Assembly (NCBI RefSeq): GCF_900163565.1
Contig: NZ_FUHU01000044.1
Coordinates: 62,001 to 126,000, forward strand
Direction of reading: 5' to 3'
DNA: 64,000 bases
Origin: Agrococcus casei LMG 22410
GTDB taxonomy: Bacteria > Actinomycetota > Actinomycetes > Actinomycetales > Microbacteriaceae
A program made the translations under genes and the position numbers. The notes beneath the pieces were generated by a model that had not been told where the DNA came from, did no database searches, and saw only the letters and a list, made by a program, of their open reading frames with translations. Of the stretch, positions 18,355 to 35,416 are shown one piece after another (the first letter of the stretch is position 1; every line of letters begins with the position of its first letter).

Positions 18355-18371
18355 GGCGAAGGGCCTTGCTG

Positions 18372-18411
18372 GTGCCGCCTGGCAGAATCGAACTGCCGAC
18401 CTATTCATTAC
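18372..18411. other. attL: 40-bp attachment core
   Basis: Identical over 40 bp to 35343-35382; identity stops abruptly on both sides. It contains only the 3' part of tRNA-Thr (T arm, variable loop, 3' acceptor), with no 5' half, so no functional tRNA is made here. Confidence 0.95.
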
Positions 18412-18458: not shown

Positions 18459-18511
18459 CTCGTAATCGTGCCTCGATAGTTTCGCCGTTCCCCTGCACGA
18501 ACGGAGAAACG

Positions 18512-19920: not shown

Positions 19921-19926
19921 ACGGCC

Positions 19927-19932
19927 ATTCTA
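19927..19932 (-). promoter_or_regulatory. -10 box of the prophage accessory gene
   Basis: On the minus strand TAGAAT ends 6 nt before ATG 19920, giving a leaderless start. No ribosome-binding site is visible. It lies at the very end of the holin gene. Confidence 0.5.
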
Positions 19933-20280: not shown

Positions 20281-20348
20281 GGGGTGCATCCTTCGGGGTT
20301 AGGGGATGTCGAGCTCGTCGGCTTCGACGACCTCGGGCGGTTCGTTGG

Positions 20349-21368: not shown

Positions 21369-21380
21369 GTTGTTCTCCTG

Positions 21381-21563
21381 TTACTCTGTTTTATTCAGTG
21401 CAGCCGACAGGTCGGCGAGATCGCCGCCGTCGGCTTCGTATGCGTGCGCGAGCTGCGCGATCTGGTCGGGAATGTCGGCCAGGCGGTGCCTACGCTCCTG
21501 CTCGGTCAGCACGTCGATGCGTAGCTGGTGCAGCTCTTCGTCAGACTTTGTTCGTAGATCCAT
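21381..21563 (-). CDS. Small phage protein of unknown function
   Basis: A 60-residue hydrophilic helical protein (MDLRTKSDEELHQLRIDVL at the start) with no recognised domain. It lies between the tail fibre gene and the endolysin, where small structural or lysis-associated proteins are common in actinophages. Spacing to both neighbours is 12-13 nt, as in one operon. No function is proposed. Confidence 0.6.
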   Translation of the reverse strand: MDLRTKSDEELHQLRIDVLTEQERRHRLADIPDQIAQLAHAYEADGGDLADLSAALNKTE

Positions 21564-21575
21564 TGGTATAGCTCC

Positions 21576-22298
21576 TTATGCGGGAAGTCCTGGCAACGAC
21601 GTCGGGAACGCTTCGTCGGTGATGTAAGTCAGCGTGAACTGGTGCCGTCGGCCGGGATAGCCTGTGACGTAGATCGCACCAGCTGAGTTCATACCAGCCT
21701 GGTAGTTCTCAATGGGCACACTCGAACTGACGGCAACATCAATCGAAAACATCAAGGATGTCCCCGGCCTGTATCCGCTCCCCAGGGTGACGAAAACGGC
21801 GTATGACGACTGCGTAAGCACAACATTTTGCATTGTCACAGTCACTAGGTGGCCGATCCTGCGGAGGCGCAGCGTCCCGAGGTTGCTGGCGTCGATCGAC
21901 TCGGCATTGATTAGGCCGGTGATATCGCGCCAGCCGGTGTCTTGTTCCAAGGCGGTAAGGCGGTCGCCGCCATCGACTCGGATCCATTCGGAGAACGGGC
22001 TGTCGATGGTTGAGTAGCGGTGGAACTCTCGAGGATTGCTGCCGTAAGCCCACGCCTTCTGCTGTGTGGTGTTGCCGATCTTGCCGACTAACAGCACTCC
22101 GCTAACAGCATCGGGTGCGTTTGCGCTGCCGCTCCAGTATCCGTACAGTCCAGGCTCGAGGGCGGTGTCGAGGCTGCCGGTCGTGGGGATCGTGCCGCGC
22201 CAGAATGAGCCGTCAGCGTAGGCCTCGAGGTGAGCCCGTAGGGCGTTGAGTTGTGTGGCGTAGAGGACGTCTCCGTCAGTGAAGTTGTGGAAGGTCAT
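21576..22298 (-). CDS. Putative tail fibre / receptor-binding protein
   Basis: A 240-residue protein starting FHNFTDGDVLYATQLNALRAHLE, a common opening of tail-tip fibre proteins that attaches the chain to the tail, then a Gly/Ser-rich beta-strand body (ALEPGLYGYWSGSANAPDAV and following) like pyocin-knob or fibre tips. It overlaps the upstream minor tail gene by 4 nt. Position (after the minor tail protein, before lysis genes) supports a host-binding role. Host receptor unknown. Confidence 0.7.
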   Translation of the reverse strand: MTFHNFTDGDVLYATQLNALRAHLEAYADGSFWRGTIPTTGSLDTALEPGLYGYWSGSANAPDAVSGVLLVGKIGNTTQQKAWAYGSNPREFHRYSTIDSPFSEWIRVDGGDRLTALEQDTGWRDITGLINAESIDASNLGTLRLRRIGHLVTVTMQNVVLTQSSYAVFVTLGSGYRPGTSLMFSIDVAVSSSVPIENYQAGMNSAGAIYVTGYPGRRHQFTLTYITDEAFPTSLPGLPA

Positions 22299-23938
22299 GA
22301 TGTCCTCGTCTCGTATGTGATGCGGTGACGGCGGGGGGTGATGTGGTGGGCGATGCCGGCGATCCGGTAGGTGCTGCTGATGTCTCGGAATCGGGCGGTG
22401 ATGCGGTCGCCGAGCTCGAGGGAGCGGGCGAGGGGTTGCTTGTCGGCCTCGACGGTGATAGAGCGGATCGTCTCGTGCGGGGTGTCGTGCGTCGTGAAGA
22501 TCGCGTTAGCTCGGCCTGGTAGGAGCGCGTCGGGTAGTTGCGTCGCGAGGTTCATGGGCCGTGGCCGGTAGCGGGCGACGGACGCGGGGCTCGTGAGTGT
22601 GTGGGGTTCTTCGTGGACGATCCAGGCGTCGGCTTGCTCGTGTGAGGGTTGCCGGCCTCGGTTGTCGATGTCGAGCGTGTTGACCGTGTCAGAGGTTGAG
22701 TAGCCGGCGTCGACGTCGACGTAGCAAAGGTGCGTCGATGCGCTGCTGTGCTGGTCGCTGAGGTCGGCTCGGGGTGCTGCTGCTGGTTTCGTGGCGAGGC
22801 GGCCGAGTCGGTCGATGTGCCAGGGCTGGCCGGCGGAGTCAGCGGCCATGACGAGGTGGTTGTAGGCGTTGGACTGGTAAGCGACCGGCTGGAGTGGCAG
22901 GAGTGGCGATCCCGGCTGCCACTGCTCCAGAAGGCCGTAGCCGATGTTGTAGGTGACGTCGGTGTGCGGTAGTTCACCTGTGTAGTCGCGGAATACGCGA
23001 AGGCGGCGTGTGGTGCTTGTCGCTTTGAAGATGACTTCTGCGACCGCGTAGCGTTTGCGGCCATTGTGGGCGACCTGCACGCCGATGGAGCGCTCGCCGG
23101 AGTCTGTGCCGACGGCGAACGTGGCGAGGCTCTCGTCGAAGTTCCATACGCTGCCTGAGCCGCTGCCGACACCGATGAGGGCGTAGAAGCGGTAGATCGT
23201 GCCGATGGTGAGGCCGGTGGCGAGGCGCTGCATTCCGAACTGGCCGGAGGTCATGCTGATGCTTTCACGGACGGCGTCGATGGTGTCGTTGATGAAGAGG
23301 CGGTTTTCGGCGTCGACTGGGCCGTAGTTGTAGCCGGTGGGGCGGGTGCCGAATCGTTCCCATGCGCCGAGGCTCGCGCTTTGAGTGACCCATCCGTGGG
23401 CGGGGCTGTCTAGGTCAGTGGTGACGTTCGCGGCTGCGGCGAGCTGCTCGACACGGTCGTCGATGCGATGCACGGGAGGATTGGTCGCGTCGATGTCGCC
23501 GGGTGCGCCGCGAACCATTGTGGCCTTGAGTTCGCGGATCGCGTCGGAGGCGTTGATAGTGACGGTGTAGTCGTCGCTTTGCTTCTCGTAGGCGACATCG
23601 ATGTCGTCGAGCGCGCCAGTCCAGAGCGTTTCGTTGCTACTGGTGTCGCGGAGGCGCACAAGCGTGCCGGGATAGACGTCATAGCCGAGGACGGGGTTGA
23701 GGGCGTTGTGCGCGATGAAGCTGAGGTAGCCGGCGTCGATGGCGGTGGTCGCGTCGACGGGGTTTCCGCCGGAGCGGGCGGTGATACTCGAGAGGTCGCA
23801 TTTCACGTCGATCCAGCGCGGCGCGTCCTGGTCTGGGTCGATTCCCAGGCGTGCCAGCGCTAGACGTGAGTGGCCGAGGATGAAGTCCTCGAGGGGCTGC
23901 ATGAATAGCTCGAGGGCGATGTAGTCTACGGCGCTCAT
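22295..23938 (-). CDS. Minor tail protein (distal tail / baseplate hub region)
   Basis: A 547-residue protein directly after the tape measure gene (4-nt overlap). The N-terminal part (DVYPGTLVRLRDTSSNETLW and SDDYTVTINASDAIREL) resembles the beta-rich distal-tail and hub proteins of siphoviruses of Gram-positive hosts, which bind the tip of the tail tube. The middle part has carbohydrate-binding-like strands. No catalytic motif is seen. Function is inferred from gene order plus this weak resemblance. Confidence 0.75.
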   Translation of the reverse strand: MSAVDYIALELFMQPLEDFILGHSRLALARLGIDPDQDAPRWIDVKCDLSSITARSGGNPVDATTAIDAGYLSFIAHNALNPVLGYDVYPGTLVRLRDTSSNETLWTGALDDIDVAYEKQSDDYTVTINASDAIRELKATMVRGAPGDIDATNPPVHRIDDRVEQLAAAANVTTDLDSPAHGWVTQSASLGAWERFGTRPTGYNYGPVDAENRLFINDTIDAVRESISMTSGQFGMQRLATGLTIGTIYRFYALIGVGSGSGSVWNFDESLATFAVGTDSGERSIGVQVAHNGRKRYAVAEVIFKATSTTRRLRVFRDYTGELPHTDVTYNIGYGLLEQWQPGSPLLPLQPVAYQSNAYNHLVMAADSAGQPWHIDRLGRLATKPAAAPRADLSDQHSSASTHLCYVDVDAGYSTSDTVNTLDIDNRGRQPSHEQADAWIVHEEPHTLTSPASVARYRPRPMNLATQLPDALLPGRANAIFTTHDTPHETIRSITVEADKQPLARSLELGDRITARFRDISSTYRIAGIAHHITPRRHRITYETRTS

Positions 23939-26373
23939 ATCGTCACCATCCCGCCGCTTCGCTGGTACGCCTTGATGGTTCGCATAACTTCACGGCCGAT
24001 CTCGACCGGGTCGCCGACGCCGGCGGTGATGTTGACCGTGATGCCTCCACTACGGCCCGCTGTGCGGGCTTGAGAGGCTCGGAACGGCTCGACAGACAGC
24101 GAGGGGTCGAAGGCGCTTTCCATGCTCGTTGCGAGGCCTCCCATGAGGCTGCGGAGGCGATTGGGGCCGGAGAGACCCTGTTCGAGCCCTTGCACGGTGA
24201 AGCGGCCGAGGTCGCGAAACACCTTCGATGGTGAGGAGATGCCGAGCATACTCTTTGCCCAACCGACGACGCCGCCGACAACGTTACTGACGGCGTCCCT
24301 AAGCCAGCCGGCCATATTGTGAATGCCGTTGATGAGTCCTCGGATGATGTCGCTGCCGATCTGCGCGAATCGGCCGGGAAGCGATCGAACGAAACCGAGG
24401 ATCTTTCCGGGCAGGTCTCGGAAGATGCCGACGACGTTGCCCATGCCGCTGGAGACTGTCGAGCGGGCTCGGTTCATCATGCCGGAGAAGAAGTTGACGA
24501 CGGCCCCGACCATGTTTGACACGAAGCCACGGATTTTTCCGATCGCGCCGCTAAAGAGATTCTGGATGTTGTCCCAGACTGTTCGAACGATGTTCGCTGC
24601 ACCAGCGAAGTCGCCCTTGAAGATGTTGACGATGAATAAGATTGCGCCGGCGACGACCTGCTGGATGATCTGTCCGACGGTCTCGAAGATCGTCTTGATG
24701 ACGTTCCAAGCGTTCGAGACGACGGTGGTGATCGCGTCCCATGCGTCGGCAAAGACGCTGCTGATGCCGTCCCAGAGTGCGGTAAAGAATTCAGCGACGG
24801 GAGCCCATGCGGATTGCATCCCGTCGGCGTTCTCGAGGGCGTTGATTTGCAGGTCGACGAACCAGCCAATAAGGCCGACGATCGCGTCGACGACGAGGAC
24901 GATCACGTCGACGAGGAATTGCAGGGCCGGCACGAGGAGCTCGACTAGGGGTGCGACGAGTTCCAGAATCGGGGTCATTAGTGCGGTGAAGAGCTCCAGG
25001 AGTGGCGCGAGGAGCTCGAGCACCGAGCCGAGGATCGGGGCGAGAGCACCGATTAGGGACTCCAGGAGCGGGGCGAGGGCGGTGAGGAGATCGCCGACGA
25101 CGGTTGCAACCAGGGCGAGGAGTGGGCCGAGGGAGTCCAGTGCCGGGGTGAGTGCTGCGAGGACGACGGTGGCGACCTCGAGGAGCACCGGGGCGAGCTG
25201 CATGACGACGCCGGCGATGCTGCCGAATATGTCGATGAGGGGTGGCAGAACGGTTGCGACGAGGCTGCCGATTAGGTCGCCGAGCTGTTCGAGGACGGGC
25301 GCCAGGAGCGGGCCGATCTGTGCTGCCGCGTCGGAGGCGATGCCGGCCAGTTGCGAGAACGTCTCTCCTAGCTGCTCGCTGACGGGTGCGAGGGCGTCCA
25401 TGATGATGCGGAGCGGTGAGAGTTGCGAGACGAGGTCGATGATCGGCTGCACTGTTGCCATGAGGCCGCCGAAGCCTCCGAAGCCGTCGAGGAAGCCGGC
25501 AACCGAGTCGGCTGCGGCTTGCAGCGCGGGAATGATCGTGCCTTGCGCTGATTCCCAGAATGCGTCGGCGAATGGTTTGACTTTGCCGGCAACGGCGTCG
25601 AGGGCGACGGTGATTGCCGAGAACGATTCGCGGGCGATGGGGAGGACGCCGCCGGCGAGCACCTCACCGAACCGAGAGAGTGCCGCGCCCATGTTCGCGA
25701 ACGCTCCCCTAGTGGTCTCGGCCGACGCTAACGCTGCGCCGCCGATGTTCTCCTCGATGACGTTGCGGAATGCCTCGGCGTCGACGGCCCCGGAGGTGAC
25801 CATCTTTCGCATTTCTTCTGCGGTGACGCCGAACTCCTCGGACAGCCAGGACAGTACGGGGATGCCTCGGTCGGCGAGCTGGTTGAGCTCTTGCGTGGTG
25901 AGCTTGCCATTGGCTTGGATCTTGTTGAAGATCGCGCCCATGTCGTCCATGCTGATACCGGCGATCGCGGAGGCGTCGGCGATCGCGGTGAGGTACTTCT
26001 CGAGCTCTGCGCCTTCTTTGACGCCGGCTGCCATTGCGCCGGCTGCTGCGGTGACGGCCGAGTCGAGGCCGAACGCGGTGCCCTTGACCGAGCCGAGAGC
26101 GGCGTCCATAACTTTACCGATAGCGACGGTGTCGTAGCCGAGGCCCTTGAGTTTGGCTTGGGCGTCCTCGATGTTCAGTGCTCGGCTGAGGCCGCCTTTG
26201 ATCGCGATTGCGCCGATCGCTGCGGTGATGCCGGCGGCTGCTCCAGCGACACCGAGGGCGAGTTTTCCGATGCCGGAGATCGCGCCGCCGATGCCGCTGG
26301 AGACGTTCTTCATGCCTCGAGTGAATGGTGCCGTGTCTGCGAGGACGCTGACGATGACTGTCTGCTTCGCCAT
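23935..26373 (-). CDS. Tape measure protein
   Basis: An 812-residue, largely helical protein, the longest gene of the prophage, which sets tail length and is ejected with the DNA. It shows ADTAPFTRGMKNVSSGIGG at the start, a Gly-rich amphipathic helix, the conserved tape-measure domain (about 80-260, with TTQELNQLADRGIPVLSWLS), long hydrophobic repeats built on LxPLLxxL (about 340-500) and a C-terminal region MLGISSPSKVFRDLGRFTVQGL found in many tape measures. It follows the tail assembly chaperones, as usual. Length predicts a tail of roughly 120 nm by the known rule of about 1.5 angstrom per residue. Confidence 0.93.
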   Translation of the reverse strand: MAKQTVIVSVLADTAPFTRGMKNVSSGIGGAISGIGKLALGVAGAAAGITAAIGAIAIKGGLSRALNIEDAQAKLKGLGYDTVAIGKVMDAALGSVKGTAFGLDSAVTAAAGAMAAGVKEGAELEKYLTAIADASAIAGISMDDMGAIFNKIQANGKLTTQELNQLADRGIPVLSWLSEEFGVTAEEMRKMVTSGAVDAEAFRNVIEENIGGAALASAETTRGAFANMGAALSRFGEVLAGGVLPIARESFSAITVALDAVAGKVKPFADAFWESAQGTIIPALQAAADSVAGFLDGFGGFGGLMATVQPIIDLVSQLSPLRIIMDALAPVSEQLGETFSQLAGIASDAAAQIGPLLAPVLEQLGDLIGSLVATVLPPLIDIFGSIAGVVMQLAPVLLEVATVVLAALTPALDSLGPLLALVATVVGDLLTALAPLLESLIGALAPILGSVLELLAPLLELFTALMTPILELVAPLVELLVPALQFLVDVIVLVVDAIVGLIGWFVDLQINALENADGMQSAWAPVAEFFTALWDGISSVFADAWDAITTVVSNAWNVIKTIFETVGQIIQQVVAGAILFIVNIFKGDFAGAANIVRTVWDNIQNLFSGAIGKIRGFVSNMVGAVVNFFSGMMNRARSTVSSGMGNVVGIFRDLPGKILGFVRSLPGRFAQIGSDIIRGLINGIHNMAGWLRDAVSNVVGGVVGWAKSMLGISSPSKVFRDLGRFTVQGLEQGLSGPNRLRSLMGGLATSMESAFDPSLSVEPFRASQARTAGRSGGITVNITAGVGDPVEIGREVMRTIKAYQRSGGMVTI

Positions 26374-26382
26374 GCTGGGCTC

Positions 26383-26806
26383 CTATCTCGAGTGCATTTC
26401 GTAGAGTGCTCGGTTGATCGCGACGTATTCGGGCCAGGTCAGCGCGTAGAACTCGGCCGGGGTGTAGTGGAGATGAACGGCGAATTGCGCCATGCGGTCG
26501 CGAAAACTAGTCGCTTTTGGTGGCCTCGTCGGCGACCTCGACTTCTTCAGCGATGCCGAGGGCCAGGAGCGTCGAATCGTCGCCGAGGTCAATGAGCTTC
26601 TGGAGGTCGGTGAACGCGAGTTCGCGGGTGTTCTTGATCGTCCAGTCACCGTCTTCGCGGCGCTTGAGGACGGTCACGAGGGCGATCACGAACTTCATCT
26701 TGGGCCGCTCGGGGTCGCCCATCGTTTCGATCGCGAGGCCGGAGGTGTCCTCGACGAACTCGATTTCGCCGAGGGTGAGCGGCGAGTCAATGGTGAGCTT
26801 GTCCAT
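26383..26806 (-). CDS. Tail assembly chaperone, long form made by frameshift
   Basis: A second frame (to TAG 26383-26385) overlaps the end of the short chaperone gene and encodes FAVHLHYTPAEFYALTWPEY, the kind of C-terminal piece found in the long chaperones of siphoviruses. It lacks its own good start (an internal ATG at 26493 has no clear ribosome-binding site), so it is most likely joined to the short form by a shift at the AAAA run 26515-26518. Relative to the first frame the step is +1 (or -2), not the common -1. Joined, the product is about 140 residues. The two forms together coat the tape measure during tail assembly. Confidence 0.75.
26507..26806 (-). CDS. Tail assembly chaperone, short form
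   Basis: A 99-residue acidic protein (MDKLTIDSPLTLGEIEFVED at the start) in the fixed position between major tail protein genes and the tape measure. It ends DEATKSD at TAG 26507-26509. Such short chaperones bind the tape measure protein. The last codons hold ACC AAA AGC, where ribosomes can slip into the frame of the long form. Confidence 0.85.
   Translation of the reverse strand: MDKLTIDSPLTLGEIEFVEDTSGLAIETMGDPERPKMKFVIALVTVLKRREDGDWTIKNTRELAFTDLQKLIDLGDDSTLLALGIAEEVEVADEATKSD
26515..26518 (-). other. Candidate +1/-2 frameshift site
   Basis: On the mRNA strand the sequence is ACC AAA AGC GAC TAG. A tRNA-Lys on AAA can re-pair perfectly with AAA one base forward, reading on as AAA GCG ACT AGT and entering the long chaperone frame. 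The -1 frame closes after 30 codons and has no chaperone-like sequence. Confidence 0.6.
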
Positions 26807-26818
26807 GCTGGTTGTCCT

Positions 26819-27229
26819 TTACTTGAGTTCTGCGCCGGCGAGGATGTCGCCGACGCCTTGGTTGAAGCGGTTGAGGATCGCGCCGCGCTGCGCCTGGATC
26901 GCCGTGAGAAGGAACGGGCTCGGCTGGTAGGCGTTATCTGGGGTGCCGTAGTGGATGACGCCGGCGTAGGGGATGCGTGCGCCGCCGGCGCGAACGACGG
27001 CTTTGGTCTTGCCTCGGCCGGATCGGATTGATTCTCGGAGCCGGCCGGAGTCGACTGGTACGCGGCCTTGAGCGTCGCGCACGGCGATCATGCCGATCTC
27101 GTGCATGAGATCGCGCATGTTCTGCGCGTCGACGCCGGCGCGAGCGAGCGCGCGGTTGAGGCGGCCGAGACCCTTGACGGTGACCTTTACGGGGCCGCCG
27201 GTGTAGGTGTGATCGGCCGCCTCGACCAT
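26819..27229 (-). CDS. HK97 gp10-like tail/connector protein
   Basis: A 136-residue protein with the HK97-gp10 pattern: a helical head (LNRALARAGVDAQNMRDLM), IAVRDAQGRVPVDSGRLRESI, and the end VIHYGTPDNAYQPSPFLLTA. Members are small tail-completion or head-closure components. The ATG at 27229 comes 3 nt after the major tail protein stop; longer upstream frames run through that gene. Its position after, rather than before, the major tail gene is a little unusual. Confidence 0.78.
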   Translation of the reverse strand: MVEAADHTYTGGPVKVTVKGLGRLNRALARAGVDAQNMRDLMHEIGMIAVRDAQGRVPVDSGRLRESIRSGRGKTKAVVRAGGARIPYAGVIHYGTPDNAYQPSPFLLTAIQAQRGAILNRFNQGVGDILAGAELK

Positions 27230-27231
27230 GA

Positions 27232-27744
27232 CTAGGCTGCCTTGCTCGTGGTCTTGCTCGTGGTCGACTTCGACGCGGTCGTCGACGTTGTCGACATGGC
27301 GCGTGCTGCGTCGGCCCGCGCCGGCAGTGTGGAGCCGGTGGCGACGAGCTCGGGCTCTCCTGTGATGTCGAATCGGGTCTCGAAGCTGTAGACGTTCGTT
27401 CGGCCAGCCTGGCCGCCGAGGTCGGGCTTGGGGCCGATCGTCAACATTCCGGTGAAGTGCGGCTCGTCTGCGCTGGCCTCGACGTTGCCGTGCGGGGCGT
27501 ACACGAACGGCACTTCCTCGCCGGTGTGCTCCCATACCGTTCGCCAGAATGAGCCGTCAGCGGTCGACTGGTTCGCGCTGAGGGTAAAGAAGTGCTGCCG
27601 GCTGCCGCTGGGGTCACAGAATGTGACAGCGTCCGTGTCTCCATCTTCCGACGACATAATCGCTGAGCGAATGTCACAGTAGTGGTCGACACCGTCGATC
27701 GTGATGCCGAGGTCTTTGCCTCGGATTACTGGGCTCTTTGCCAT
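27232..27744 (-). CDS. Major tail protein
   Basis: A 170-residue beta-rich protein (KSPVIRGKDLGITIDGVDHY, then GTMLTIGPKPDLGG-like strands) located between tail-terminator and chaperone genes, the usual place of the tail-tube subunit. The end is a Ser/Thr/Lys/Ala-rich tail (about 147-170), which may be flexible decoration on the tube surface. Assignment rests on size, composition and order. Confidence 0.78.
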   Translation of the reverse strand: MAKSPVIRGKDLGITIDGVDHYCDIRSAIMSSEDGDTDAVTFCDPSGSRQHFFTLSANQSTADGSFWRTVWEHTGEEVPFVYAPHGNVEASADEPHFTGMLTIGPKPDLGGQAGRTNVYSFETRFDITGEPELVATGSTLPARADAARAMSTTSTTASKSTTSKTTSKAA

Positions 27745-27755
27745 TTTGGGTGCTC

Positions 27756-28130
27756 CTAGTTATTGAGGGTGAAGTCATGCGTCACGGTGACGATGACGCC
27801 GGGGTAGTCGGTGCTGTTCCAGGTGATCGGGGTGGGTTGGGTTACGTTCTGCACCAGGAAGCCGGCCTCGTCGAGCGCGTCGATGTGCGTCTCGAGGTAC
27901 TCGTCGAGGTCGGTCGCCGTTCGCCGGTTGTCGCCAGCGCGGAGGACGATGACGATCTCGAGGCGGATGACGTGCTCGATGAACGTCTCGGCCTGTTCGA
28001 TGTAGGGGTCGCCGGCCTGGATGACTGCGCACGGCGGCGCGATCCTGCCGGGAACATAGGCGTAGGCGTTGAGGCCGGCATCCTTGAGTGTTGTCTCGGC
28101 GAGCTCGCGGATCGTCTTGAGGCTACTCAT
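27756..28130 (-). CDS. Tail terminator / completion protein
   Basis: A 124-residue protein (SSLKTIRELAETTLKDAGLN, then a strand-rich body ending VIVTVTHDFTLNN) with the alpha/beta layout of phage tail terminators, which cap the tail tube and join it to the head. Its ATG overlaps the stop of the connector gene by 4 nt. Longer upstream frames are Arg/His-rich antisense-like sequence and were rejected. Confidence 0.72.
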   Translation of the reverse strand: MSSLKTIRELAETTLKDAGLNAYAYVPGRIAPPCAVIQAGDPYIEQAETFIEHVIRLEIVIVLRAGDNRRTATDLDEYLETHIDALDEAGFLVQNVTQPTPITWNSTDYPGVIVTVTHDFTLNN

Positions 28131-28441
28131 GCTGCACCGATGCCGACGTAGTGGCGCAGAATGGGGTACGCGCCGACGAGCGGGTCTCGGGCCACTCGGA
28201 TCGGTGCGGCGTCCGGGGTCGCGAACTGCGCGATTCCGTTGGGGGCGTTGCGTCGGTTGTAGAGCTCGCTGCCGACCTCGAGGATCGCACGCTCGCGCAC
28301 CTTGTCCGGCACCTCGGCGCTGCCGACGTAGCCGTCGATGAGCACCTCGGCCGTCTCGGCGCACTCGGGGATGAATGCGTCGGTGGCTTCGGCGTTGACG
28401 TAGACCGCGAGGCGGTCAGCGAGCGTGCGATCCTCGGCCAT
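28127..28441 (-). CDS. Head-to-tail connector protein
   Basis: A 104-residue, mainly helical protein (DRLAVYVNAEATDAFIPECA, then VRERAILEVGSELYNRRNAP) of the adaptor type (HK97 gp6-like) that binds the portal ring. It follows the capsid gene by 2 nt and overlaps the next gene by 4 nt. Assignment is by gene order and the helical pattern with a conserved ELYNRRNAP. Confidence 0.75.
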   Translation of the reverse strand: MAEDRTLADRLAVYVNAEATDAFIPECAETAEVLIDGYVGSAEVPDKVRERAILEVGSELYNRRNAPNGIAQFATPDAAPIRVARDPLVGAYPILRHYVGIGAA

Positions 28442-28443
28442 GA

Positions 28444-29994
28444 CTATGCGCCGGCCGTGGTCACGTCGATCGGGAGGATCGCTGCCGGAACCTCGTTCGC
28501 GACTGCGCCGTAGCGGTATACGCTGTATGCCTTGGTGAGGTTGAGGACGTTCTCGTCCTGGAGCTGCACCAGGGGCGAGTCGTAGGCGGTGAGCGCTGCC
28601 GGGTTCGCGAATGCGGCCGTGGAGGCTGCCAGGCTCGGCACTGCGAATACGTTGAGGCCGACGAGGTCGCCGGAGAGGCCGGCGACGTTCAGCTTTCCGA
28701 CCGTGTTTGCGCCGCTGTTGGACAGCGTGAGGAGCGGGCGGCCGTCGGCTGCGACTGCGTTCTTGATGGTCTTGAATACGTCAGTGGAGACGATGAGGGC
28801 CTCCATGCCGTAGCCGAGGTCGTCGAAGTAGACGCCGCCGTCGATGACGAGGTCAGTCCATGCTTGCCAGGTGTCGGCCTCGAGGAGTACGGCGTCGGAG
28901 GCGCGGGCCGTGAGAGCTGCTTCGAAGGCGTTGGCGACGTTCAGCTTCTTCGTCTTACCTGCCGCGACTGCGAGGGCGTCGAGGGTGCGCTGGAGCACGG
29001 GGAGGCTGGAGCGCTCGATCGCCTGGCGCGAGAGGAGCGACGCGCCGCCGTAGGTGTGAACCGGCGCGGTCTTGGTGCGGAGCTTGACGTTGCCGAGCGG
29101 CAGGTCGTCGCCTTCTTCGAGCTGCTCGGAGACTTCGACGGTGACCGATTCGAGCTCGGCGTACTCGATGTTCATGCCGGTTGAGGGCAGGGCCTTCGAG
29201 CCGAAGAAGTTGGACAGCGCGCCGCTGGTGTTGTCGAAAATGCGGGTGAGGTCGCCGACCCAGGCGTCTTTGACGGGCGCGTCAGCGGTGGTGCCGCCGG
29301 CGAACTCTCGGGCCTCCTGCTGCATTTCGTTGTAGCGGTTGATCGCTGCCTCATCGCCGCTGGCGATCGCGCGGAGCATGGCTGCTGCGCTGCGGGCCTC
29401 CTCGCGGGGTGCGGCGTTGAGGTCGCGATCCATGAAAGAGATGAACTTGCGTTCGAGCTCGTCGAGCTGGCTGCGAGCCTCGGTGTCGACAGTGTCGACA
29501 GTGTCGTTGGTGGTCATGGTGGGCCTTTCGGTCTTGGTTCGGACAGTTTCGAGTCGGGCGTCGGAGTAGGCGGGGAACGGCTCGAGCGACACCTCAGAGA
29601 CTCGAACGCGCGTGCGGATGATGTCGCCGGTCTCGTCGTCGGTGAGGTGCTCGATCGGGTCGAACCGGATGGAGAACGTGTCGATGACGCCGTCGCGGGC
29701 GAGGGCGTAGGCGTCGTTGCCGGCCTGGGTGTCGGAGAACCGAGCCCGGAACTTCCAACCGTCGTCGGTGTCCTCGAAGTCGATGACGGGGCCGATCGGT
29801 TCGCGGTGGCGGTAGAAGAACATGACCTTGCCGTCGACTTCGACGCTGCCGCGCTGGAAGCGCTCGTTGTAGGAGCCGAACCAGTCGTTGATTTCGACTG
29901 TCTGCTCCCAGGGAACGCCGATGCCGGTGATTGTGCGGGTCTCGTCGTCGGTGCCGACGATCTCGACGAGGCCGGTGCGGATGTGGTCAGTCAT
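28444..29994 (-). CDS. Fused prohead protease-major capsid protein
   Basis: A 516-residue polyprotein. Residues 1-155 are an HK97-type (U35) prohead protease with MFFYRHREPIGPVIDF, the catalytic-region GVIDTFSIRFDP and VSEVSLEPFPAYSDARL. Residues 160-516 are an HK97-fold capsid subunit with a charged scaffold-like segment (about 170-235) and the shell domain after it (VTVEVSEQLEEGDDLPLGNV). Met160 (ATG 29517) has GAAAGG about 7 nt upstream, so the capsid part might also be made alone. In most phages the two are separate genes. Confidence 0.9.
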   Translation of the reverse strand: MTDHIRTGLVEIVGTDDETRTITGIGVPWEQTVEINDWFGSYNERFQRGSVEVDGKVMFFYRHREPIGPVIDFEDTDDGWKFRARFSDTQAGNDAYALARDGVIDTFSIRFDPIEHLTDDETGDIIRTRVRVSEVSLEPFPAYSDARLETVRTKTERPTMTTNDTVDTVDTEARSQLDELERKFISFMDRDLNAAPREEARSAAAMLRAIASGDEAAINRYNEMQQEAREFAGGTTADAPVKDAWVGDLTRIFDNTSGALSNFFGSKALPSTGMNIEYAELESVTVEVSEQLEEGDDLPLGNVKLRTKTAPVHTYGGASLLSRQAIERSSLPVLQRTLDALAVAAGKTKKLNVANAFEAALTARASDAVLLEADTWQAWTDLVIDGGVYFDDLGYGMEALIVSTDVFKTIKNAVAADGRPLLTLSNSGANTVGKLNVAGLSGDLVGLNVFAVPSLAASTAAFANPAALTAYDSPLVQLQDENVLNLTKAYSVYRYGAVANEVPAAILPIDVTTAGA

Positions 29995-29996
29995 AA

Positions 29997-31178
29997 TTAG
30001 GCTGCGCTTTCATTGACGGGCTGAGGTCGGAGCGGGGGGTATTTCTCGAGGTCGCGAACCTCGGGGACGGTGAGGAAGCCGGCCCGGATCGCGATCTCGT
30101 GCGCCTCGTACCGTGTCTTGGTGTCGGAGCGGAGGAGCGCGTCGATGTTGAAGCGCACGCGCTGACCTCGCGGCAGGAGGTTCGTGAGCGCGTCCTCGAT
30201 CTCGATGAGGTACTGCATGAGACTGAATCGGACGTACCCGATCCAGTCCTGTTCGACGTTGGAGTAGGTCTGCGAGTTGCCCTCGACGGCGGCGAGCATG
30301 AGCGACGCGGGGACGCCGAAGAGTCGCGCTATCTGCGTCGTCGTGAACTCTTGTGACTCGATGAACTGCGCGTCACGCGGGCTCACGAATACGGGGCTGT
30401 AGGTTACGCCGTGTCCGAGGACTGCGATACCTCGAGTGCCGCCTTGGGTTTGATCCCAGCGCTCTTTGATGCTGTTGGCGGTTTCGGTCGTGAGGGCCGA
30501 GTCGGTCTTGAGGATGCCGGTGGGCTGGCCTCCAGGGCCGAGGAAGAAGTTGTGCGCGTGGTCGCGGAGATCGAGCGCGCCGGCGAGCTCGGATTGTGCT
30601 GCCTGGATCGGGCCGAGACCGTAGGCGCTGCCTGGTACTCGGAGGAGCGTGAGGTGCTCGATCTCGGAGGGCTTATAGGTTCGGCCTCGGTAGTCGTAGC
30701 GGTCGACGTGGCCGTTGCGGTCGGCACGGATGACGATGTCGAGCGGGTTGAGCACCTCGACGTTGCGGAGGTTGCCGGCGTCGTCGCGCTGGAGTCGCCA
30801 GTAGGCGTTGCCGTTGCCGGCGAGTGATCCGACGGTCTGCTCGATGAACTGCGAGCGGGACGCGAACGGGTTGGGGCGGCGAATGATCGTCGGGGTCGGG
30901 ATCGTGGTCTCTTCGCCGGTCTCAGCGTCGGTGCGAGATACGTCGATGCCGAGCTGCTTGGCGCTGATGATGTGGATCGAGACTGCGCGGTAGACCATCG
31001 AGAGGCTGAGGGCCTTACCCATCGAGACGCTGCGGTCGGTCTTCTCGCGGGGCGGCGGCTGCACGCGCGCGGCGGCGAGGTGGGGCTTGTTGGGGCCGGG
31101 CTCGAGCGACTCGGCTCGCTTCGCTGCGGTCGGTACAGCGAGCGACGGTTGCCCTGTGAGCCATTCTCGGAGTCCCAT
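29997..31178 (-). CDS. Portal protein (HK97 family)
   Basis: A 393-residue protein forming the dodecameric DNA gate of the head. Typical portal features are SMVYRAVSIHIISAKQLGI, the clip/stem region IIRRPNPFASRSQFIEQTVG, GNAYWRLQRDD, and the late IARLFGVPASLM helix with EQDWIGYVRFSL. Length is within the 380-450 usual for the family. It sits between the terminase and the protease-capsid gene. Confidence 0.93.
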   Translation of the reverse strand: MGLREWLTGQPSLAVPTAAKRAESLEPGPNKPHLAAARVQPPPREKTDRSVSMGKALSLSMVYRAVSIHIISAKQLGIDVSRTDAETGEETTIPTPTIIRRPNPFASRSQFIEQTVGSLAGNGNAYWRLQRDDAGNLRNVEVLNPLDIVIRADRNGHVDRYDYRGRTYKPSEIEHLTLLRVPGSAYGLGPIQAAQSELAGALDLRDHAHNFFLGPGGQPTGILKTDSALTTETANSIKERWDQTQGGTRGIAVLGHGVTYSPVFVSPRDAQFIESQEFTTTQIARLFGVPASLMLAAVEGNSQTYSNVEQDWIGYVRFSLMQYLIEIEDALTNLLPRGQRVRFNIDALLRSDTKTRYEAHEIAIRAGFLTVPEVRDLEKYPPLRPQPVNESAA

Positions 31179-31203
31179 ACCAGGGACTATAGACGAGGTT
31201 TTC

Positions 31204-32676
31204 TCAGAACACTTGCACTTCGGCGTGTCGGGTGCTGGTTTCGGCTGCGAGCACGCCGTATGCGGTCGCGATCGTGGTGTCGACTTCGACGCTGGAGTCC
31301 TTGCGGCTGATGCGGAAGGACTCTCCCACGTCTTTGCGAACTGCTCGGGGTATCTGCACGTCGAGGAGCGCGTCTCCGGCGTGCTGGAGTGTGCGGGTTG
31401 CGATTCGGGCGTAGAAGCGCGTGGCGGCGTTCGTGGCGTGGCCGAGGGTGCCCTTGATGACGTTGTATCCCTTGCCCTTGAGGCGGTCGGCGAGCTCGCC
31501 GAGGCTGAGGGCGTCCATGATGAAGCCGGCGGGGCCGTAGTTCGTTCCTAGGTCGTGGGCGACGCGCTCGAGCATGTCTACGTCCGGACGCTCGAGGGAT
31601 GCAACCACTTCTGTCCAGATGATGCCGTCGTCGTCTTGGACGGATGCAACGATCGAGGCCCATGACCACTCGGGAGTACGGTCGATCGATATCCAGGCCG
31701 GCAAGTGCCGGGGGAACTTCGAGCCGGCTGGCCGGCGAACGCGCTGCCAGACGGCGGCGGTAATGAACGTCGAGGAGGATGCGCCGAATCGGTTGAAAAC
31801 ATATCGGACGATCTCATGCTCGGGCATGGTCTCGATGTCGTCGAGGATGTCTTCGGCGTCGAGGCGGCCGTCTGCGGCTGCGGGGTTCGCCTCGAGGATG
31901 TAGTGCCTTCGCGTGTGCCGATCGTCGGGGACGCGAACCTCGGGGGCTTCCCAGATGAAATAGCCGAATCGCTCGCCGATGTTGGGGTCTTCGGTGTCTT
32001 CGTAGAGGCGGAGGAGTAGCTCGGACTCGTCGTTGCCGGCGGTGGTGTAGCCGATAACGATGCCGTTGCGGCGTGCGCGTGATCCGTTGACCATGTCAGT
32101 CCAGAGCGCGGCCGGCAGGATGTGGAGCTCGTCGGCGAGTCCGACGGATACGTCGAGGCCCTGGACTGCTGCCGACTTCGACGGCTTGATCTCGTAGACG
32201 CCGCCGTCGTGGCTGCTGATGCCTCGAGTGTCGGTGAGTCTGGCGAATCTGCGTCGGAGGCGCTTGTCTCCGTCGATCGCGGCCATGAGGCGTTTGTAGA
32301 TGATGCGTGCTTGCTCGCTGCTGGAGGCGATGCCGATGACGAGCGCGCCGGCCTCGCGGAGGAGACCATAGAGGGCGAAGATGCTGCCGATGACGCTCTT
32401 GCCGTTCTGCCGCGCGAGGCTGATGACGACTTGCCGATAGCGGAGGCGGCCGGCTCGGGCGTGGTCGGCGGGATACACCTCGAGAACGTGCCGGATGAGG
32501 TGGCGCTGGTACTCGTCGAGGTTCAGGCGGGTGCCGTCGGGCGTGCGCCAGACGAGGTCGATGAGCTTGAGGAGCCAGTCGCCATGCGAGGGGAACTCCT
32601 CAGACAGTGGGGGGCTGTGCCGAGTGGGAGGCCAGCCGCTCGAACGGCACTTCTCGCAAAGTTGCTTAGCTGGCAC
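31204..32676 (-). CDS. Terminase large subunit
   Basis: A 490-residue packaging motor. The ATPase has a Walker A-like VISLARQNGKSVIG (about 85-98), the Walker B-type VGLADELHILP near 180 and a coupling motif GYTTAGN; the nuclease domain holds acidic residues in ISIDRTPEWSW and GFIMDALSLGEL. It cuts concatemers and pumps DNA into proheads. The start is a GTG at 32676 that overlaps the small-subunit gene by 11 nt; an unusual Cys pair (LCEKCRSSGW) lies at the N-terminus. Confidence 0.92.
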   Translation of the reverse strand: MPAKQLCEKCRSSGWPPTRHSPPLSEEFPSHGDWLLKLIDLVWRTPDGTRLNLDEYQRHLIRHVLEVYPADHARAGRLRYRQVVISLARQNGKSVIGSIFALYGLLREAGALVIGIASSSEQARIIYKRLMAAIDGDKRLRRRFARLTDTRGISSHDGGVYEIKPSKSAAVQGLDVSVGLADELHILPAALWTDMVNGSRARRNGIVIGYTTAGNDESELLLRLYEDTEDPNIGERFGYFIWEAPEVRVPDDRHTRRHYILEANPAAADGRLDAEDILDDIETMPEHEIVRYVFNRFGASSSTFITAAVWQRVRRPAGSKFPRHLPAWISIDRTPEWSWASIVASVQDDDGIIWTEVVASLERPDVDMLERVAHDLGTNYGPAGFIMDALSLGELADRLKGKGYNVIKGTLGHATNAATRFYARIATRTLQHAGDALLDVQIPRAVRKDVGESFRISRKDSSVEVDTTIATAYGVLAAETSTRHAEVQVF

Positions 32677-32944
32677 GCGCGCGCTCGATGATCTGGTCGA
32701 CCTCGTCGTCGTGCGCTGCGGCTTCGGGGTTCGCCTTGAGCAGCGCTCGATGCGTGAGGCCGAACTGAGCCAGCATTGCCGGCGTCACCTTGCCGCTGTC
32801 GAGCTCCTCGGCGATCGCTTGCAGCGACACAATGCTCGGGAGGTGCTCGTCGGAGAGGTAGGGGGCATTCCCCAAGAACTTCTCCACTGCCTGTGAGAAC
32901 CTCCCCGATATTCGCTCGATCTCGAGCCCAACTAGCTCGTTCAC
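32666..32944 (-). CDS. Terminase small subunit-like protein
   Basis: A 92-residue helical acidic protein directly before the large terminase subunit. The pattern LSDEHLPSIVSLQAIAEELD..KVTPAMLAQFGLTHRALLK resembles the small subunits of actinophages, which recognise the packaging site. GTG start, overlapping the HNH gene stop by 4 nt. Position is the main evidence. Confidence 0.7.
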   Translation of the reverse strand: MNELVGLEIERISGRFSQAVEKFLGNAPYLSDEHLPSIVSLQAIAEELDSGKVTPAMLAQFGLTHRALLKANPEAAAHDDEVDQIIERARAS

Positions 32945-33309
32945 GCGGTCACCTCAGAAATATTTTGTCCCGTTTGTGAAAATGCGAGTTGGGGGCGGGG
33001 TGCCCTGGGGCCTCCCAGAAAAGGCGCGGCGACCTGGGCGACGACGCCGGCGATCCAGGCGGGGTTGAGCCAGGGCGTGCGCTCGGCGGTTCGGTCGGAC
33101 TTGACACCGTTGCAGCGGCGGCAGAGGGCTTGCAGCTCGTCGTCACGGTACTCGCGGCCGGGGTCGAGGACGATGGGCTCGATGTGGTCGACCGTGGCGT
33201 CAGCACCAGCGAGAGGCTTCGCGCATCGCTGGCATGTCCAGCCGTCGCGATCGAGGACGCGCTTACGCTGCGCATCCCATGATGAGCCTCTCGCTGAGTG
33301 CTTTGCCAT
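32941..33309 (-). CDS. HNH endonuclease
   Basis: A 122-residue nuclease with CQRCAKPL (first zinc pair), TVDHIEPIVLDPG (the catalytic His with the Asp before it), and LCRRCNGVKSDRT (second zinc pair and the N of HNH). HNH genes beside terminase genes assist DNA packaging in many HK97-like phages. The C-terminal 35 residues are Pro-rich. The ATG is at 33309; the gene overlaps the terminase small subunit by 4 nt. Confidence 0.9.
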   Translation of the reverse strand: MAKHSARGSSWDAQRKRVLDRDGWTCQRCAKPLAGADATVDHIEPIVLDPGREYRDDELQALCRRCNGVKSDRTAERTPWLNPAWIAGVVAQVAAPFLGGPRAPRPQLAFSQTGQNISEVTA

Positions 33310-33314
33310 GTCGT

Positions 33315-33512
33315 CTAGACCTCCTGGCCTCGGATTATAGCTGAGACTTCCTCGGCGGTGTAAGCGCGGCCGCGCGCGGTGAGCTCGTCCCGGACGATCT
33401 CGAGGAGGTCTTGGGCGTCGGTGATCGCGATGTGCGTGACCTCGACGAGCTGCTCGAGTTCGGCTGTGCTGCGCTCGTGCAACGTGGGCTGGAGTTCTTC
33501 GGTGAGGGTCAT
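33315..33512 (-). CDS. Small phage protein, unknown function
   Basis: A 65-residue helical acidic protein (MTLTEELQPTLHERSTAELE at the start) with no recognised domain. AAAGAAGAAG lies just upstream of ATG 33512. It overlaps the next upstream gene by 4 nt in a tight run of small early genes. Confidence 0.6.
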   Translation of the reverse strand: MTLTEELQPTLHERSTAELEQLVEVTHIAITDAQDLLEIVRDELTARGRAYTAEEVSAIIRGQEV

Positions 33513-33619
33513 GGCTTCTTCTTTCGGTTGCGGGTGGCGTAGGCGATGCCGAGGGCTGCGGTGCCGGCGGCGCAGAGGGCGAGGGCGTACCACTGTTCGA
33601 AGTGTTCGAGGGGCATCAT
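33509..33619 (-). CDS. Very small single-helix membrane protein
   Basis: A 36-residue frame: MMPLEHFEQW, one hydrophobic helix (about residues 11-28, ALALCAAGTAALGIAYA) and a basic end (TRNRKKKP). The tandem ATGs (33619 and 33616) overlap the stop of the gene before it, and its own stop overlaps the next start, so it sits in a coupled array. It could be an antiholin-like or membrane-targeting peptide; no family is recognised. Confidence 0.55.
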   Translation of the reverse strand: MMPLEHFEQWYALALCAAGTAALGIAYATRNRKKKP

Positions 33620-33951
33620 TGGGCGAGTTCTGCTTCTTCGAGGAGTTCTGCGAGCTCGCGGGCGGCTGCTTGCTGCCGGCACATGCTGGGGGGCCAGCCA
33701 GCCGGCCACGCGCGGCCGCGCGCCTCGAGGCCATACTCGGCCGCCGCGATGACTTCGTGGACGAGATCGGCGTCCACTTCGAGAGCGATCTTGGCGGGAC
33801 TTGAAGCCTTGAGCGCTGCCCGTTCGGCTGTCATTGCGCGAAGAGCGGCGAGCATACCTGGGACGTCGAAGTCGCCGCATCTGACGCATTCGAACCGACC
33901 GTTGGGCGCGTGGTCGCTGTACTCTCCTTCCCGGCTTATGCAAGCGCTCAT
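33616..33951 (-). CDS. Small phage protein with Cys pair, unknown function
   Basis: A 111-residue protein with a possible zinc knuckle at the N-terminus (one Cys in MSACISREG and the pair FECVRCGDF) followed by a long helical region and Trp/Pro patch (RAWPAGWPPSMCRQ). ATG 33951 overlaps the upstream gene by 4 nt. No family is recognised; such proteins are common among early genes of actinophages. Confidence 0.6.
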   Translation of the reverse strand: MSACISREGEYSDHAPNGRFECVRCGDFDVPGMLAALRAMTAERAALKASSPAKIALEVDADLVHEVIAAAEYGLEARGRAWPAGWPPSMCRQQAAARELAELLEEAELAQ

Positions 33952-34211
33952 GCTCCCTGCTCCTGTCGTGCTGGGTCGATGCGTCGCAGGACTCGGCCGT
34001 AGGCTTCGGCGCATCGGGCGTAGAAGCGGAGGCCGGCTGGTGTGAGTTGCATGGGCGCGATCTTGGCGATGACTCGGTCGACGGTGTTCGCGATGTCAAT
34101 GACGGTGAGGTAGTCGCGGTCGGTGAGGCGTACGCCGCTGATGCGGAGTGCTGCTTCGTGTACTTGTTCGAAGTCGTCGAGGACTGCGATCTTAGGGTCG
34201 TGGGCGCTCAT
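33948..34211 (-). CDS. Small phage protein, unknown function
   Basis: An 87-residue protein, mainly helical (VLDDFEQVHEAALRISGVRL), ending LRRIDPARQEQGA. AAGGAGG lies about 8 nt before ATG 34211, the best ribosome-binding site of the early genes. It overlaps both neighbours by 4 nt. No domain is recognised. Confidence 0.6.
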   Translation of the reverse strand: MSAHDPKIAVLDDFEQVHEAALRISGVRLTDRDYLTVIDIANTVDRVIAKIAPMQLTPAGLRFYARCAEAYGRVLRRIDPARQEQGA

Positions 34212-34822
34212 GCGTCGCCCTCCTTTCGGTTGGGCGATGTGATGGTCGCGAGTGGTTCGAGGCAGTCGGCGCAGAGCCCTAGGCGTCGGTTGATGCGATG
34301 GGGGTCGGGGTAGTTCGTCTCGCACTTCGTCCACGCTTCGCGCGCACGGTTACTAGGTGAGTTGTTCTTTAGATCTTTAGTTACGGGGTTAGGGGACGTT
34401 TTGGGGGGCCTTTGTGTACCCCCCCGGGGGTATAAATTGCCCTCCCCTGGCAATTCCCCCGGGGGCTGTGGATAACTCGTCAGAGGCTCCACTGAGATGC
34501 TGTCTCGGGTCTTGTGATTCTTCGTCCGGTCGCAGTCGGGAGGGCACGTCAGCGTGAACTTGTAGAGGTTCGGGCGTTGGTAGTCCTCGATGTTGCCGTT
34601 GCCGCCACGCTGCAACATGACCTCAATCTCTCCGAGGTCTGTGAGCCTCCTCACGGCCTTGCGTGCCGTGCGCAGGTCGACGTTCGCGTACTTCGCCAAC
34701 GTCGCCATAGCGGGCCATGCGCCGCCGTCGCCGTCATGGTTCGCGATGCCGACGAGCACCATGCGCGCGGCCCCCGTCGACTTTGAGTGGTGCATCGCGA
34801 TCACCATCGTCTCGATGCTCAT
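34208..34822 (-). CDS. HTH-domain protein, possible replication initiator
   Basis: A 204-residue protein. The first 75 residues form a winged helix of the replication-initiator type (LVGIANHDGDGGAWPAMATL, DLRTARKAVRRLTDLGEIEV) as in phage replisome organisers. A Pro-rich linker follows, encoded by a C/G-run-rich stretch around 34400-34470, and a zinc-ribbon-like end (CETNYP.., LCADCLEPL). As the only plausible replication gene of this phage, it may recruit host DnaB at the origin; this is inference. The coding region around 34440-34470 could itself hold the origin. Confidence 0.65.
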   Translation of the reverse strand: MSIETMVIAMHHSKSTGAARMVLVGIANHDGDGGAWPAMATLAKYANVDLRTARKAVRRLTDLGEIEVMLQRGGNGNIEDYQRPNLYKFTLTCPPDCDRTKNHKTRDSISVEPLTSYPQPPGELPGEGNLYPRGGTQRPPKTSPNPVTKDLKNNSPSNRAREAWTKCETNYPDPHRINRRLGLCADCLEPLATITSPNRKEGDA

Positions 34823-35001
34823 GCCGACCGCTCCTGCTCGAGGGTTGCAACGTCAGCCTCGGCGAAGAGGTAAGTACCGTTCGATGCTGGGAGCTTCTGA
34901 GTAGGCGCCAGGCGTCCTTGCCTGACCATCCAGAGCACGAGCTGCCGCGTGACACCGAGGCGCTCGGCGACCTGGCTGGTCGTGAGATCGTTGTTTGTCA
35001 T
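34819..35001 (-). CDS. Excisionase / Cro-like HTH_17 DNA-binding protein
   Basis: A 60-residue protein consisting of one MerR-like helix-turn-helix (LTTSQVAERLGVTRQLVLWM, then GRLAPTQKLPASNGTYLFAE). Small proteins of this family are excisionases or early-operon repressors. It is the first gene of the leftward lytic operon and divergent from the repressor, the place of cro/xis in a lambdoid-style switch. ATG 35001 follows an apparent -10 by 6 nt (leaderless), and a half-operator overlaps the start codon. Confidence 0.75.
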   Translation of the reverse strand: MTNNDLTTSQVAERLGVTRQLVLWMVRQGRLAPTQKLPASNGTYLFAEADVATLEQERSA

Positions 35002-35035
35002 ACGCACAACTTAGCCTAAATTGTGCGTACGCACA
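35001..35035. promoter_or_regulatory. Prophage switch operators
   Basis: TGTGCGTACGCACA (35022-35035) is a perfect 14-bp palindrome, and a matching half-site ACGCACAA occurs at 35002-35009, touching the excisionase-like start codon. Between them, on the minus strand, lie TAGGCT and TAAGTT -10 candidates. This is the expected place for repressor binding to shut the leftward early promoter. Confidence 0.7.
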
Positions 35036-35068
35036 GTAACTTCTCTAGGTCGTGTCGTAGCACACTGC

Positions 35069-35074
35069 TATGAT
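35069..35074 (+). promoter_or_regulatory. -10 box of the repressor promoter
   Basis: TATGAT ends 7 nt before ATG 35082; no ribosome-binding site is present, so the repressor mRNA is probably leaderless. Confidence 0.55.
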
Positions 35075-35081
35075 TTGTCGT

Positions 35082-35405
35082 ATGACAAACATGCAAGATG
35101 TCGGGATCGTGCCGGGCTGGGAGCTGCGGCACCGGCTACAGCGAGCTCGCGAGATAACTGGTCTCGAGCAAGCTGAGTTCGCTGAGTCGTTGGGCGTGTC
35201 GCGCAATAGCGTCTCAAGTGCCGAGCGCGGCGCGACGCGGCCGCGTGAGATAACGCTGCGGGCGTGGGCGCTGCGAAGCGGTGTGCCGTTGCAGTGGATC
35301 AAGACGGGCGAGGCCCCGTCACCTGATGATGACGGGGCCACTGTGCCGCCTGGCAGAATCGAACTGCCGACCTATTCATTACGAGTGAATCGCTCTGCCG
35401 ACTGA
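35082..35405 (+). CDS. Prophage repressor whose 3' end is the attachment site
   Basis: A 107-residue XRE-type repressor (lysogen form). Its helix-turn-helix lies at about 15-70 (LRHRLQRAREITGLEQAEFA, then SVSSAERGATRPR). From residue 88 the coding sequence is the 40-bp attachment core, and residues 101-107 (RVNRSAD) come from host tRNA-Thr DNA read antisense; the stop is inside the tRNA gene. In the rejoined viral genome the same gene would be 115 residues long, ending QGDHFAEVIPLRLAS, and would lie directly before int. This matches integration-dependent immunity, in which only the integrated form is stable. An ATG at 35070 overlaps the -10 box and is less likely. Confidence 0.85.
   Translation: MTNMQDVGIVPGWELRHRLQRAREITGLEQAEFAESLGVSRNSVSSAERGATRPREITLRAWALRSGVPLQWIKTGEAPSPDDDGATVPPGRIELPTYSLRVNRSAD
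35312..35339 (-). terminator. Phage-supplied hairpin downstream of tRNA-Thr, inside the repressor gene
   Basis: GGCCCCGTCA (35312-35321) and TGACGGGGCC (35330-35339) form a perfect 10-bp stem with an 8-nt loop, 4 nt beyond the tRNA-Thr 3' end on the minus strand. It probably replaces the host hairpin (18318-18354) left behind by integration. It lies in repressor codons 77-86. Confidence 0.6.
35343..35382. other. attR: 40-bp attachment core
   Basis: Perfect copy of 18372-18411. Here the core completes tRNA-Thr on the minus strand and encodes repressor residues 88-100 on the plus strand. Confidence 0.95.
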
Positions 35406-35416
35406 GCTAAGGCGGC
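35344..35416 (-). tRNA. tRNA-Thr (anticodon CGT)
   Basis: A 73-nt cloverleaf with every stem paired: acceptor GCCGCCT/AGGCGGC, D arm GCTC/GAGC, anticodon arm ATTCA/TGAAT around loop CTCGTAA (anticodon CGT, reading ACG), and T arm GGCAG/CTGCC with TTCGATT. The discriminator is A; CCA is not encoded. The prophage core supplies the part from the anticodon loop to the 3' end, so the gene is restored after integration. Confidence 0.96.

Follow-up and report, generated by a model that had tools for sequence, protein, structure and literature searches.

A candidate BPs-type integration-dependent immunity system in an Agrococcus casei prophage and its recurrence in Microbacteriaceae

In the window, that is, the whole stretch of 64,000 nucleotides of Agrococcus casei LMG 22410 that was analysed, the repressor gene of a prophage runs through an attachment site and stops inside a tRNA gene. 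The question raised by this locus is whether the attachment site simply happens to lie there, or whether the exchange of the end of the repressor upon integration acts as a switch, as in mycobacteriophage BPs. The original prediction was that the same logic operates in this Microbacteriaceae host. The anatomy of the locus, the homology of its genes and a comparative test all fit this claim and support it as a prediction, and we consider it quite probable that the Agrococcus prophage carries a BPs-type integration-dependent immunity system.

Prophage anatomy and the two forms of the repressor

The prophage extends from core to core over ca 17 kb (18372–35382), with an exact 40-bp repeat at its ends. 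The left core, on the integrase side, is at 18372–18411 and the right core, on the repressor side, at 35343–35382, and the two match at 40 of 40 positions. The core is part of a tRNA-Thr(CGT) gene on the minus strand (35343–35416), the attB site, which remains intact according to ARAGORN. The genes between the cores are those of a siphophage-like element, with terminase, portal, a capsid–protease fusion, major tail protein, tape measure, tail proteins and amidase encoded on the minus strand, while several small open reading frames gave no match in the family scans of the prophage proteins.

The empty site was looked for in 24 related loci, most of them only ca 3 kb long, with Brevibacterium and Mycolicibacterium loci included and five genomes counted twice. 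In five of these, the nicotinamidase and hydrolase flanking genes are both found around the same tRNA, and the prophage integrase is present in none of the 24. A set of 14 genome-contig loci (from Agrococcus, Brevibacterium and others) mostly match the tRNA-coded end and are informative for the host and the empty site only. As a side observation, one T-stem pair of the tRNA-Thr (positions 51 and 63) is unlike that of 19 of 20 relative rows, the 20th row differing elsewhere in the T-stem; since both cores are identical, this pair may have come with a phage.

The prophage form of the XRE repressor is encoded on the plus strand (35082–35405). Starting at ATG 35082, the frame crosses the right core with codons 88–101 and stops inside the tRNA-Thr gene, with its last codons antisense to the tRNA, to yield a protein of 107 residues ending RVNRSAD. 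Both the coordinates and the sequence, which had been proposed earlier, were reproduced here; an alternative in-frame ATG at 35070 gives 111 residues. The protein matches HTH_3 (8.2e-9) and the transcriptional repressor family phrog_2328 (1.9e-28). Of 297 phage records found at E 0.01, the best, from Gordonia and Mycobacterium phages, carry the annotation immunity repressor (46.7% over 100% for RogerDodger), the lower ones coming from many other phages. No second repressor was seen among the scanned prophage proteins, several small open reading frames there being without a match.

Joining the core in silico to position 18412 reconstructs attP. The frame then stays open, as had been anticipated, into a phage-coded 3' end on the plus strand (18412–18458, ending AEVIPLRLAS), and the stop ends at 18458. 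The resulting viral form has 115 residues and ends QGDHFAEVIPLRLAS; the prophage form lacks this tail, ends soon after the core and is eight residues shorter. In the viral arrangement, the integrase gene lies directly downstream on the same strand, its ATG at 18512 following after the proposed gap of 53 nt. It encodes a tyrosine integrase of 269 residues (18512–19321, plus strand; PF00589, 1.1e-21; phrog_1), the closest relatives of which are those of cluster P mycobacteriophages (43%). Its C-terminus, PRAA, is an ssrA-like end as judged from the letters alone.

On the other side of the repressor, a divergent gene (34819–35007, minus strand) encodes a small excisionase/MerR-like HTH protein of 62 residues (HTH_17, 3.8e-8; excisionase phrog_4691, 7.6e-6), which may have a Cro or Xis role; a gene of this kind beside the repressor bears on the question of the recombination directionality factor. 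Between the two divergent genes there is a 14-bp perfect palindrome (35022–35035), present in a single copy in the window, which is a candidate operator. A consensus promoter scan returned one promoter-like site, at 34995–35022. A TATGAT hexamer (35069–35074, plus strand), read by eye and absent from the scan output, is a candidate −10 box, and since it is only 7 nt before ATG 35082 it suggests that the repressor mRNA is leaderless.

From these elements the following mechanism can be proposed. In the free phage, the repressor and the integrase would form one unit, presumably with a shared rep–int transcript, and attP would lie within the repressor gene. The viral tail after the core would most likely mark the repressor for host proteolysis, and the integrase, with its PRAA end, would probably be short-lived as well. 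Recombination of attP with the tRNA-Thr gene would exchange the tail for the host-coded residues ending RVNRSAD, and the 107-residue repressor is expected to be stable and to shut the divergent early promoter. At the same time, integration would cut the integrase gene off from the repressor promoter. The prediction is thus that recombination itself would decide immunity.

Recurrence in Microbacteriaceae and the C-terminal ends

To survey the family, a profile of nine repressors was run against 398 Microbacteriaceae genomes, which gave 32 repressor matches in 29 genomes. At 22 of the 30 repressor loci examined, an antisense tRNA (Thr, Arg, Lys, Asn or Ala) lies over the 3' end of the repressor; it is missing in G280, G251 (an attP-like form), G271, G370, G052, G358, G176 and at one of the two loci in G033. 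Reconstruction yielded 20 prophages, namely 19 of the 22 with an antisense tRNA, the Agrococcus prophage included, and G390, which uses tRNA-Val. The other three loci, L124, L126 and L130 (in G293, G179 and G276), are at contig ends and were not reconstructed. An exact core repeat is found beside the integrase in all 20 (35–44 bp in 19 cases and 82 bp in G033). A frame-breaking attP had been named as a result that would contradict the switch; instead, the reconstructed frame is open past the core in the Agrococcus prophage and in 20/20 of the set.

Some of these cases required a choice. In G343 the longest repeat, 84 bp, has no integrase, and a 39-bp repeat beside the integrase was used instead. 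The repeat of G033 includes the stem-loop discussed below, perhaps reflecting a tandem prophage; this case was kept and counted as lacking an A/S end. For G062, two contigs were joined by inference. G052 was considered as a further member and rejected, as the family repressor is present but the longest repeat found is only 11 bp. Separately, two related repressors lie ca 17 kb apart on contig C1 of G033 (626446–643389; L128, L150), one with an antisense tRNA and the other followed by an integrase, an arrangement that may be explained by a tandem prophage whose middle junction resembles attP.

The search of related phages for the order repressor–attP–integrase, which the original prediction had called for, thus finds it in the 20 reconstructed prophages and also outside of them. 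The attP-like G251 contig has the same tRNA as the Agrococcus prophage, the repressor–integrase order and a repressor ending LIAA. The free Curtobacterium phage Barebow has this order too, with a repressor ending RAS and an integrase ending IAS, and would be a suitable bench model, being a free Microbacteriaceae phage with the same arrangement. Its annotation at L111:14389–15697 gives only an HTH protein and an integrase, yet a tRNA-like core in the repressor frame and a stem-loop are present there. In the search for close relatives in which selection on the viral tail could be examined, two scans of viral contigs gave no relative of the integrase and one repressor match, L098, without usable content. 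DNA similarity to Arthrobacter and Curtobacterium phages falls in neighbouring HTH genes and not in the repressor. In the stretches examined of Arielagos, Root and BlueFeather, there is no annotated integrase beside the repressor-like gene.

The circuit looks common in the family, judging from the 22 of 30 loci, and it is mostly tied to very small prophages: the span is ca 15–18 kb in 16 of 20, with 8.2 kb in G133, 35 kb in G202 and 37 kb in G390. Five of them (G063, G240, G224, G393 and G185) have terminase, portal and capsid in common with the Agrococcus prophage at 37–57% identity; in the other nine reconstructed prophages of the same comparison, the structural matches are weaker or absent.

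We now consider the ends themselves. The original prediction had taken Leu-Ala-Ser as the destabilising end of the 115-residue viral form, and on sequence grounds it may be so. It counts against the BPs-type reading that LAS is unlike the host tmRNA tag, ANEKRTDFALAA, which ends ALAA, and that the two forms differ by only 8 residues, compared to 18 to 35 in the published text available for BPs, M. abscessus and Bifidobacterium. A terminal -AS does have precedent in cluster G, where the repressors of Liefie and Sneeze finish with KAS. For BPs, the accessible part of PMC4557955 reports that A135E in the 136-residue form stabilises the repressor, which means that the penultimate residue there is Ala, and BPs is grouped among systems without a standard ssrA-like tag in the part of PMC8092301 at hand. 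Within the window, [AV][AS] ends 4.5% and [LV]A[AS] 0.23% of 1295 open segments, perhaps with the tail's own segment included, and the evidence from the window alone is weaker than the comparative evidence.

That comparison bears directly on the simplest alternative, in which the position of the attachment site at the 3' end of an otherwise ordinary repressor gene is incidental, the protein tolerates either C-terminus and immunity is independent of integration. The two forms do differ only after the DNA-binding domain, and the BPs forms bind DNA alike in the available text of PMC4557955. However, the last residue is A or S in 12 of the 20 viral forms compared to 2 of the 20 prophage forms (Fisher p 0.002); the background is 21.8% of 5781 segments, and the binomial p for 12/20 is 2.4e-4, both p values being optimistic since the 20 prophages are related lineages and relatedness was ignored. 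Where the repressor frame of an isolated phage contains a tRNA-like core, the protein ends in A or S in 12/12 cases, the close pairs Wizard/RogerDodger, BigNuz/Brusacoram and Liefie/Sneeze each being counted separately. This count left out Dmitri, Nyceirae and Gusanita, which have no tRNA-like core by pattern, and Nazo, which is almost a duplicate of BigNuz; A is the last residue in each of these four. The viral tails also have a common motif at the same position, although the pattern was chosen post hoc (see below). On the other side, the eight viral forms without an A/S end (G096, G227, G202, G390, G240, G088, G033 and G062) favour the ordinary repressor, count against the BPs-type reading as well and mean that an A/S tag is not general. 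On balance, we find this alternative unlikely.

Another option is that integration still switches the repressor on, with the viral tail not being a degradation tag and instead, for example, hindering tetramers or binding a partner via a VIPL-like motif. The viral-only tails contain AEVIPL in both the Agrococcus prophage and BigNuz, AEVLPF in G390, AEIIRF in G161 and TEIPLF in the attP-like G251 contig. The pattern E[VI][IL]?[PR][LF], chosen after the tails had been inspected, occurs in 5 of 33 viral tails and, in a background that may include some of these tails, in 12 of 5781 segments; an earlier pattern gave 9/21 compared to 7/1295. This motif and the viral tails without an A/S end would fit such a role, as would an activating function of the BPs extension, proposed in the portion of PMC4557955 available. 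The same portion, however, traces the inactivity of the BPs viral form to proteolysis, and we regard the option as quite unlikely; under the BPs-type reading, the motif could also be an adaptor or protease contact. Finally, it is very improbable that the prophage is a decayed remnant with a functionless leftover frame across the core, since open frames with family matches encode terminase, portal, capsid, tape measure, amidase, integrase and repressor, and the cores are identical; the unmatched small open reading frames would suit this idea.

The in-frame stem-loop and filamentous-phage-like carriers

The repressor frame also contains a G+C-rich stem-loop (35312–35339), which is separated from the core by 3 nt. 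When synonymous codons were redrawn, its p value was 0.004 or 0.0125 in two runs. Of 18 repressors that contain a tRNA-like core, 10 reach the threshold p ≤ 0.02 (BigNuz, Typha, Liefie, Sneeze, Brusacoram, G227, G202 and G390 do not), as do 8 of the 20 Microbacteriaceae prophages, six genes being common to the two sets. In the relatives, the place is similar and the sequences are partly different. Stem-loops before a tRNA-derived core were also noticed in L001, L002, L067, L068, L099, L100, L108, L111 and others.

Downstream of the tRNA in the prophage, this stem-loop is the first structure encountered, and it stands in the place of a comparable stem-loop of the host (18312–18371, minus strand) that would have followed the tRNA before integration, putatively as a terminator. 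A terminator scan gave no T-run terminator, and both the phage stem-loop and its strand partner are without a T run, which we count against a classic intrinsic terminator. The stem-loop might instead act as a shared terminator for the convergent transcription of the tRNA and the repressor, possibly lent by the phage to the host tRNA. As such it is a testable candidate.

Two of the carriers are filamentous-phage-like prophages with the repressor–att–int arrangement of the Agrococcus prophage. The G133 element (L068:1615–9690, 8.2 kb, at tRNA-Thr) has none of the structural genes of the Agrococcus prophage and encodes a replication protein (Rep_1) and a Zot-family ATPase related to those of the Propionibacterium filamentous phage B5, with identities of 31% (68% of the protein covered) and 45% (74% covered), respectively; for the replication protein, Pseudomonas phage PMBT54 gives the top match. 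The element's viral repressor terminates in YGAAA and the integrase in LTLAA. In G062 (L200, L078), the replication protein, the ATPase and the repressor are on one contig at tRNA-Ala and the integrase is at the end of another, and with these contigs joined by inference the viral repressor would end LAK. A Zot-family ATPase of this type is present in 7 of the 398 genomes, and in the stretches examined two of the seven have the repressor module. Among the matches listed in our literature search, there was no report of an inovirus with integration-dependent immunity.

One can speculate that the switch is a portable cassette with its own transcription insulator. Namely, the in-frame stem-loop would replace the tRNA terminator and separate the convergent repressor and tRNA transcription, and the cassette would have moved between unrelated Microbacteriaceae viruses, from tailed phages of ca 15–18 kb to B5-related filamentous phages. 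We put this forward tentatively and would not be surprised to see it fail. If true, integration would decide immunity in filamentous phages likewise, and such carriers would make the circuit independent of the type of virus.

Comparison with known systems

The switch logic is already known from BPs-type systems, and what is new is the host family. In the literature searched, with most subscription papers outside the search, we found no report of integration-dependent immunity in Microbacteriaceae; a 34-kb Agrococcus prophage is described in PMC6196244, in the available text of which attP, repressor and immunity go unmentioned. The present results would add this family to the hosts of a circuit in which the decision on immunity is made by DNA recombination itself, and the ca 20 naturally paired C-termini, viral and prophage, provide a resource for learning repressor degradation marks.

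According to the accessible parts of PMC4557955, PMC9262239, PMC8092301, PMC5559632, PMC5513430 and PMC6109161, the circuit is known from phages of mycobacteria and Gordonia and from prophages of M. abscessus and Bifidobacterium. In it, the repressor gene contains attP, the viral form of the repressor is unstable and the prophage form shorter and stable, the tyrosine integrase is often tagged too and attB is commonly a tRNA gene; the Arthrobacter phage Galaxy has a similar gene order with attP elsewhere. The BPs precedent that had been invoked agrees with PMC4557955 and PMC9262239, as far as their available text goes. Like BPs and clusters G, I, N and P in these two sources, the Agrococcus prophage has attP in the repressor gene, rep followed by int on one strand, a divergent cro/xis-like gene, a palindromic operator candidate, a tRNA attB and differing C-termini. 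Unlike BPs, it resides in Agrococcus, uses tRNA-Thr and has a 17-kb genome, and its function in immunity is a predicted one. Its prophage repressor is shortened by 8 residues, compared to 33 in the BPs text at hand, and gains host-coded residues.

Bb423phi2 and 689b-1 of Bifidobacterium and the M. abscessus prophages were likewise recognised by rejoining prophage ends (PMC6109161, PMC8092301, in the parts available). These have other hosts and att sites and truncations of 18 to 35 residues compared to 8 here. In the same part of PMC8092301, MabB likewise adds seven host-coded residues, and some M. abscessus systems are without ssrA-like ends.

In gene content, the Agrococcus prophage resembles Microbacterium phage BonaeVitae (17.5 kb), its many relatives and Barebow, with terminase, portal, capsid and tail homologues at 38–50%. 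The annotation of BonaeVitae lists a repressor and no integrase, while Barebow has the int–rep order of the Agrococcus prophage. PMC5559632, in the text available, describes integration-dependent immunity in Gordonia phages of clusters CW and CV, and according to that text the CW phages McGonagall, Jeanie, GMA5 and GRU3 have 17-kb genomes and the same repressor–attP–int logic. Cluster CW also has a homologous repressor (51.7% over 81%) and a stem-loop of this type ahead of the core. The differences are that the CW site is a tRNA-Lys gene and that the viral C-terminus of the repressor is VAA in McGonagall and AAA in GMA5, unlike the LAS of the Agrococcus prophage.
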